DNA of 64,000 nt from Utricularia gibba (Eukaryota; Streptophyta; Magnoliopsida; Lamiales; Lentibulariaceae). This document shows, piece by piece, positions 46,269 to 48,843 of the stretch; the first letter of the stretch is position 1, and each line of letters begins with the position of its first letter. A program made the translations under genes and the position numbers. The notes under the pieces were generated by a model. The model saw nothing but the letters and a program-made list of their open reading frames with translations, was not told where the DNA came from and did no database searches. The stretch is taken from contig NEEC01000002.1 in NCBI GenBank assembly GCA_002189035.1, forward strand, positions 620,001 to 684,000, read 5' to 3'.

Positions 46269-48274
46269 ATGGGAAGAGGGAGAGTTGAGCTGAAGAGAAT
46301 AGAGAACAAAATCAACCGGCAAGTGACGTTTGCTAAACGAAGGAATGGGCTTTTGAAGAAAGCTTATGAGCTATCAGTCCTTTGCGATGCCGAGGTTGCG
46401 CTCATTATCTTCTCCAATAGAGGAAAGCTCTACGAGTTCTGCAGTAGTTCTAGGTATTAAAACACACAGATCAAACTCTTTTCTCTTATCAATTTTCGGG
46501 TTCGAGGATTCTTAAATTTTTTGTCTGAAAAATTCCATCTTTGATGTAAAAGAGAAAAAAAGGCCATTGGGTCTTCTTCTTTGCCGTTTCTATGAAATGA
46601 TTTGATGCCTGCTGGAGGTTTGTGCTGCTGGGTTGTGTTCGATATGCAAGTCACTATCACTTCTTTATTTATCTTCATTTCTTATACCCAACCTTTAGGT
46701 CTTCCCTTTTTCTGTTTCAGTGTTAAGCTATAGATTTCTCTTCTGCGTGGAGAGATCAGATCAGTTTATCAACCATTTTTGTTCCCCTCATCTTCTTTTC
46801 TTTTTGTTCTTGCTGCTGTAGCTTGTGGAAATCGGTTCTTTTTATTGATCTATTCTACAAGTTTTATCTTGAAAAAATTTTAAGTTCATTCATAGAACCT
46901 TATATAGTTTTTTGGAATCTGCCCTTTCTCCATTTAGGGTTTGGTTTGTTCTGCAAGCCAATCACTCATTTTTCTTCAGCTTGATCTGCAGTTGATTTGG
47001 GGAAATCTGCTTACCTTTTGTAGTGTTCGCCAAATTCACAGATTTTTTACGATTGTTGAAAAATCATCACCCTAGATTTCAAAGTTGCAAGAAATGGAGT
47101 GTACTACTGCTTGAGTTACCGTTGGGAAATGATCCAGTGGACACAATAAAGATCTCATCTTCACATTTTTCCTGGTTTCTTTCCGGTGTGATATGACTAA
47201 TACCTCAAGATTAAGACATGACTGATTAACATTTTATTAATTGTTTCTACTGTATCCTTGGGATAATGCTTGTTTCTGAACCTGGGTTTTAACTCTTGCA
47301 GCATGATAAAGACACTGGAGAGGTACCAGATGTGCAACTACGGAGCACCAGACACAAATGTATCCACAAGGGCTGCACTGGTATTTTCCTGTTATCTTTT
47401 GGCTTTCCCTTTTCTAGACTTGCCACTTTGTCAGTTTGCTTGTGGTGCATACATCTAGACTAGTATATCGCACGGTTTTGGACATCCAACTGTATCTTGC
47501 TTACAGGAGCTGAGTAGCCAGCAGGAGTATTTGAAGCTGAAGGCACGATATGAATCTCTCCAGCGGACTCAAAGGTTGTAGAAACTGTTGTTGGTTCCAG
47601 AAACATGAACAAATGGTTGATGAAAGTGTATTCCCAGGAACCTTCTTGGTGAAGATCTTGGCCCTTTGAACAGCAAGGAGCTCGAGTCACTCGAGATGCA
47701 GCTAGATACTTCACTTAAGCAGATAAGATCAACCAGGGTAGATTACTAAACATCAGCTTCCATTAAGATAGATGCAATGATTTGGTATAACCCAAACTAT
47801 TTGCAGACCCAGGCTATGCTGGATGCACTTACGGATCTTCAGAGACAGGTATCCCCAGGTACCTTTTAATCAAAAAGATGACTTCTTTAACACACCCATT
47901 TGTGAATTTGTGTAGGAACATGCCCTGAACGAAGCCAACAGAACTTTGAAGCAACGGGTACAGTTTTTTCACACTCCCATCAATGTTGTTTCGACAAATC
48001 AACAGTTTCAACGATGTTGCTGCAGTTGATGGAAGGAACCCAGATCAGTCTTCACTGGGAGGCTCATCATCATCCTCAACCAGATGCTTTCTTTCATCCC
48101 ATCGAATGCGAACCGACACTTCAAATTGGGTAAAAAAAAACACTCCGTTTTCCATCAAATCAATTTGAACTTATTCATGATCGATTCTTATAAATGTTCA
48201 GATACCAGCCGGATCATGCGGCGGCGACAGGGACCGGTGTCAATAGCAGCTACCTCACCAGCTGGATGCTTTGA
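46269..48274 (+). CDS. SEP: SEPALLATA-type MIKC MADS-box protein (SEP1/2/4 lineage)
   Basis: Eight exons: 46269-46453, 47302-47380, 47507-47574, 47638-47737, 47807-47848, 47916-47957, 48026-48129, 48202-48274, giving 230 residues in perfect phase and with the canonical MIKC exon pattern. The MADS domain (1-60) is textbook ([20 protein letters not shown]). The K domain contains [19 protein letters not shown] and [11 protein letters not shown], hallmarks of SEPs. The short C-terminal region keeps the SEP I motif ([13 protein letters not shown]) and a degenerate end (SSYLTSWML). SEP proteins bridge floral quartets on CArG boxes and specify floral organs. At 230 residues it is somewhat shorter than the usual 240-260 because the glutamine-rich C region is reduced. 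The first intron is long (848 bp), as in relatives. Confidence 0.95.
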
Positions 48275-48654
48275 TACTTCTTCAAAGTGTTTTCTTCAGC
48301 TCTTGGCGTGCTTTGCTTAGTAATATCGCTGGACCTTTTTATTGAGCTGTTGATTTTTTATGATTGTTTTTCTGGATTGAAACTGGGCTTGATATTTATT
48401 TAATGGGTCCTCAAACTTATAAGCAGTCGCAGAACTGGAACTCATCAGCGATGAGCTTCCCGGCGGTTGCCGTGACAGCGCCGCCGTTGACAGTAAAACT
48501 ACTTTACAAAGAATATGAAGAAGGCTTGTGCGTGAATGGACAAGCTGTCCTTTCCCTTCCGTTTCTTCTTTTTATTTTTCCTTCCGTACGGTACAAGTGT
48601 CTGTAGAAAGGATAGCGTGAGGTGCGGTGCGTATGATCAAAGCTCAGTGACAAC
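48275..48654. other. Gap between SEP and FLC-like relic
   Basis: SEP 3' UTR and unassigned sequence; no gene seen. Confidence 0.5.
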
Positions 48655-48843
48655 ATGGGGAGGAGGAAGCGAGAGATAAGGCGAATAGAGGACAATAGCG
48701 CGAGGCTGGTGACGTGCGCGAAGGGAAGAAATGCACAGTTGAAGAAAACGAAGGAATTGTCTGTTCTTCCCGATGCGGAAGTGGGTGTCAATTCTGAAGC
48801 TGGGGAAACCTTTACCAATAACATAGCACATTGTACAGATTGA
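48655..48843 (+). pseudogene. FLC-like MADS-box relic (first exon only)
   Basis: The reading begins [19 protein letters not shown] and continues with [13 protein letters not shown], clearly the start of a MADS domain. MGRRK and RRIEDNSAR point to the FLC lineage and away from SEP (MGRGR). Essential positions are lost: the basic patch SKRRNG reads AKGRNA, the cysteine of SVLCDA is proline, and the IVFS strand after VGV is largely deleted. The frame ends at 48843 and I found no K-domain exons downstream, so only a decayed first exon remains. Same orientation as SEP, 380 bp behind it. Confidence 0.8.

Follow-up and report, generated by a model that had tools for sequence, protein, structure and literature searches.

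Which gene gave rise to the short MADS-box open reading frame that lies just behind a SEP gene at this Utricularia gibba locus, and does any of it still function? The original prediction saw in it the decayed FLC partner of an old angiosperm tandem. Such a tandem is well documented: SEP3 next to FLC is given as the ancestral angiosperm state in PMC9656651, which cites Ruelens 2013, and as ancestral in angiosperms in PMC10338227 and PMC9779283 too, with further SEP3–FLC tandems in potato, coffee and beet (PMC10338227). The window, i.e. the whole stretch of 64,000 nucleotides analyzed here, is C451:620001-684000; whole-genome work was carried out on an assembly of 100.1 Mb (516 contigs). The features on which the argument relies are the following (window positions unless a contig is named):

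43853-45015, + strand: SBP/SPL transcription factor gene (PF03110 matches at C451:663925-664068 and 664266-664352)
46269-48274, + strand: complete SEP3-type MADS-box gene, eight exons, 230 amino acids (exon model with GT/AG junctions)
48275-48654, + strand: spacer of 380 bp between the SEP3 stop and the relic ATG, former promoter/5′ region of the FLC-like gene
48655-48843, + strand: dead FLC-like exon 1, with 45 readable MADS residues followed by a 4-nt frameshift
48844-49022, + strand: remnant of FLC intron 1 (blastn to L081)
49045-49097, + strand: what is left of FLC exon 2, interrupted by an in-frame stop (HIENGE*AAIGTHQ)
49098-49364, + strand: deletion site of exons 3-7 (K-box and C-terminus), recognized from the flanking homology blocks
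49365-49639, + strand: 3′ flank of the former FLC-like gene (65% over 293 columns to L081 6792-7070)
50245-50661, + strand: small intronless-looking gene with hydrophobic stretches, the downstream neighbour, kept in the duplicate blocks too
C2:4740883-4745654: intact SEP3–FLC tandem (L081), a collinear duplicate with the same neighbours as in the window

The SEP3 gene and the relic behind it

The SEP gene is complete, as had been predicted: its exons, running from 46269-46453 to 48202-48274, are joined by GT..AG junctions throughout and yield one intact frame of 230 amino acids, whose MADS domain and K-box (92.6 and 87.6 bits) score well above the Pfam cut-offs. The K and C regions give 202 bits against AtSEP3 and 164 bits against AtSEP1, so that the gene combines a MADS domain, a K-box and a SEP3-like C-terminus in a complete frame. 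The SBP/SPL gene upstream is the usual upstream neighbour of the SEP3–FLC pair, to which an SBP gene is linked (PMC9779283).

The dead MADS first exon was also found where it had been announced, on the same strand, with its ATG at 48655, 380 bp past the SEP3 stop. Its open reading frame comprises 62 codons and closes with a TGA at 48841-48843, but only residues 1-45 are readable, the remainder having been shifted out of frame by a 4-nt deletion that follows codon 45. The match to the Pfam SRF-TF profile covers profile positions 1-36 of 48 only, with a score of 35.1 bits (cut-off 26) and an E value of 8.7e-9, which becomes 1.8e-6 in a six-frame search of the whole genome; the match is not due to chance.

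Comparison with the FLC-like gene of the C2 tandem reveals what else is left. Exon 1 of the relic is identical to its C2 counterpart at 142 of 173 nucleotides (82%), and its splice donor has been lost through a 15-nt deletion at about 48830. The homology extends into intron 1 (48591-49022 versus L081 4753-5233: 67.6% over 484 columns, E=4e-57) and, in collinear order, to a fragment that lies beyond the interval of the original prediction and matches exon 2 of the intact gene (L081 5572-5624: 75% over 53 bp, E=4e-5). Past intron 1, the alignment relies on local BLAST blocks, as a global MAFFT alignment goes astray there owing to the large deletion. Between the exon-2 remnant and the 3′ flank, 267 bp in the window replace 1167 bp in the intact copy, and exons 3-7 are therefore lost. 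Searches of the relic locus for these exons by tblastn and blastn gave no match; thus none of the K-domain exons that would have spoken against the prediction remain there. The frameshift, the lost donor, the stop in exon 2, the deletion of exons 3-7 and the substitution pattern described below (11 replacement to 6 silent changes) are together those of a pseudogene, from which probably no protein is made.

Phylogenetic placement of the relic

A whole-genome scan returned 93 MADS-box matches, from which MADS domains were taken for trees on 59 residues (protein) or 177 nucleotides (DNA), together with Arabidopsis reference sequences. The best match of the relic is by far L023 (C2:4743840), the FLC-like gene of the C2 tandem, where it stands immediately 3′ of a second SEP gene (L020); the relic and L023 share 34 of the 45 readable residues. 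The two group together with supports of 98/84 (protein) and 100/89 (DNA); they are joined by L031 (98/93 and 100/99), and then by the remaining FLC-like genes of the genome, the whole group being supported at 100/99 on DNA. The bootstrap for placing the relic among the FLC-like genes of this genome is thus 98-100%; against it count the small number of readable residues, 45, and the length of its branch.

The orientation of the relic and its distance of 380 bp from the SEP gene, with which it shares 26 of 45 residues, are also what one would expect of a failed tandem copy of that gene, and a copy of another floral MADS gene (AP1/FUL or AGL6) may be envisaged as well. Such an origin is extremely improbable: AU tests reject a forced placement of the relic with SEP (p=0.002), with the window SEP alone (p=8e-5), with AP1/FUL (p=1e-5) and with AGL6 (p=0.01), and the higher identity to the C2 FLC-like gene is accompanied by intron-1 and exon-2 remnants that align to that gene. 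A tandem SEP duplicate is in fact excluded by the AU tests and the collinear intact FLC-like gene. The FLC-type origin that had been proposed from the sequence of the exon is thereby borne out. An origin from AGL17/ANR1 or AGL15, to which a few residues of the relic point (27 of 45 shared with each of ANR1 and AGL15), was rejected too, as the trees give no support to either.

Whether FLC proper is what was lost calls for closer consideration. The AS-MADS clade, a sister of FLC, is also syntenic to SEP3 (PMC10338227): AS-MADS occupies the SEP3-linked position and forms an AS-MADS–FLC tandem in potato, and the FLC-like genes of U. gibba fall into at least two sets, L023/L031/relic and L002/L019/L021/L027. 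An AS-MADS origin is nonetheless rather unlikely, since the K-box exon (exon 4) of the C2 partner fits FLM best (74 versus 42 for SEP3 and 37 for AP1), more strongly than that of the L002/L019/L021/L027 set does; FLM of Arabidopsis is the best score for exon 4 in all six of the genome's FLC-like genes in which this exon was read. The I-K-C region of the C2 partner gave no match to AtFLC by plain BLASTP, and the whole group joins AtFLC/FLM in the MADS tree at only 89/70. The FLC identity of the clade would be founded on synteny, the MADS tree and one K-box exon. As to synteny, the relic is the immediate neighbour of SEP3, which has an SBP gene on its far side, in the same row of three genes as the angiosperm SBP–SEP3–FLC cluster (Ruelens 2013, cited in PMC9656651 and PMC9779283), where the FLC-like gene is likewise immediately adjacent to SEP3; unlike in that cluster, the FLC member in the window is a pseudogene and the intact row is found on the C2 duplicate.

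Altogether, we consider it close to certain (probability about 0.95) that the relic descends from an FLC-clade MIKC MADS-box gene and is a non-processed pseudogene, in its ancestral place directly 3′ of SEP3; its homology, position, lesions and selection pattern, as well as the intact duplicate, are directly observed.

Decay of one duplicate

DNA searches showed that the window, from ~34 to 61 kb, is collinear with C2:4.730-4.754 Mb in gene order and orientation, mostly at ~67-87% identity. The C2 segment retains the SBP gene (C2:4737702-4738800), SEP3, an intact FLC-like gene and the downstream gene (C2:4746501-4747235; also collinear with C3:4486428-4486794), whose product is a probable membrane protein. 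The 380-bp spacer of the window is itself largely alignable to that of the C2 tandem (blastn blocks 47432-48591 and 48591-49022 versus L081). In contrast to its window counterpart, the C2 FLC-like gene is complete, with seven exons, 200 amino acids and both MADS domain and K-box above the Pfam cut-offs (40.6 bits for the K-box). The two segments look like a whole-genome duplication pair; published accounts of U. gibba (genome size about 100 Mb) count two recent whole-genome duplications, or at least three, with heavy fractionation.

The tempo of the decay was assessed by polarizing the substitutions between the exons 1 of the relic and the C2 gene with L031 as an outgroup. The relic lineage accumulated 17 substitutions versus 2 on the C2 lineage, where both are silent. 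The relic branch carries 11 replacement and 6 silent changes, which agrees with the neutral expectation (72% replacement, p=0.59) and differs from the 3:14 of the functional FLC-like pair (Fisher p=0.013) and the 2:14 of SEP exon 1 (p=0.004). Four of the changes, Q18L, F21C, R24G and C39P, affect residues that are (nearly) invariant among intact genes. SEP3, on the other hand, stayed under purifying selection in the window (Ks 0.43, Ka 0.044 and Ka/Ks 0.10 versus the C2 duplicate), and the downstream gene gives a Ks of 0.59 and a Ka/Ks of 0.17. Replacement divergence on the relic branch is ~0.11, compared to a neutral divergence per branch of ~0.22-0.29, taken as half of the neighbours' silent divergence, a rough comparison on few sites. 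These figures suggest that the relic has evolved neutrally over about 40-55% of the time elapsed since the duplication, the small number of sites making this a coarse estimate, and the window copy probably died well after it.

The same data bear on whether the 62-codon frame is alive, encoding a truncated MADS peptide or serving as regulatory RNA. Its ATG and open frame have been kept, and the region upstream is still alignable; however, a replacement-rich neutral pattern confined to the relic branch, changes at (nearly) invariant residues, a frameshift within the domain and the deleted splice donor make a living frame very improbable. It is equally hard to credit that the exon-1 frame and the alignable upstream region keep a job such as a transcript regulating SEP3 or the intact FLC-like duplicate.

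Our reading of the relic as an FLC-clade pseudogene suggests the following course of events. The SBP–SEP3–FLC row was copied by segmental or whole-genome duplication, and the C2 copy retained all three genes. In the window copy, FLC was released from selection while SEP3 remained under purifying selection, and the former underwent a frameshift in the MADS domain, loss of the exon-1 donor and deletion of all K-box and C-terminal exons. The idea that the FLC partner decayed in place thus stands, with one qualification: as the tandem is intact on C2, the relic is not its sole vestige in the genome, and the decay is the fractionation of one copy and not a loss from the lineage, i.e. the ordinary loss of one of two duplicates, caught part-way.

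The cluster and its piecemeal loss have already been described in other plants, and the accepted account of the SEP3–FLC tandem is unchanged. In tea plant, duplicated SBP–SEP3–FLC clusters have likewise lost FLC and kept SEP3 (PMC9779283); unlike there, the FLC gene lost from the window has left an exon-1/exon-2 relic in which the steps of its decay can be read. What the locus offers is a clean and roughly datable view of an SBP–SEP3–FLC duplicate shedding FLC while SEP3 stays selected, with an intact partner against which each lesion can be read, along with an inventory of FLC-like genes for a very small plant genome.

Several further elements of the window deserve mention. A tRNA-Ser gene (anticodon TGA; 51313-51397, - strand) lies ~2.5 kb downstream of the relic, in a region where 82 bp match the collinear C2:4747951-4748032 at 100% identity. 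A second SBP gene (56863-57632, + strand) follows the first at a distance of 12 kb; it has relatives at C451:964393 and C375:3112216, the latter with two in-frame stops in the second half-domain match, and one of these relatives lies inside another copy of the block. Positions 32818-33190 hold a dispersed repeat, probably a short transposable element, of ~300 bp with many copies genome-wide (73-78% identity).

Other copies of the block and the FLC-like genes

Further copies of the block differ in gene content: C451:81168-85000 has kept the SBP gene and an FLC-like gene (L031, most exons recognizable) and has no SEP; C3:4486-4489 kb has kept the SBP and downstream genes and has no MADS gene; C414:513 kb has kept the SBP gene; C375:3.10-3.13 Mb and C412:70-88 kb have kept SEP3 and flanking genes. 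No FLC remnants were found next to SEP3 on C375 and C412 or next to the SBP gene on C3 and C414. The row has therefore been thinned differently copy by copy, matching the uneven thinning described for tea (PMC9779283). The older core-eudicot triplication, and not the recent duplications, may be the source of some of them. Note that at C451:79500-85667 (L084, L031) the FLC-like gene follows the SBP gene by about 380 bp with no SEP in between, as in a cluster copy that has lost its SEP.

Additional FLC copies had been anticipated, and the genome indeed contains seven FLC-like genes whose MADS exon is intact. One of them is the direct partner of the relic, whose tandem with a SEP3 gene persists. 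Four FLC-like genes form a tandem array at C2:1183970-1194533 (L002, L040, L019 and L021) with no SBP or SEP gene near, and a lone one (L027) is located at C451:2853103, away from any SBP or SEP gene; with the array and L027, FLC-like genes have expanded in a genome otherwise shedding duplicates. SVP/AGL24-like genes also occur in tandem arrays, one of five members at C505:603686-617044 (L014, L044, L018, L045 and L032) and one of four at C402:1168888-1178287 (L017, L076, L037 and L033, with L076 degenerate); the two arrays are related and apparently duplicates of a single array.
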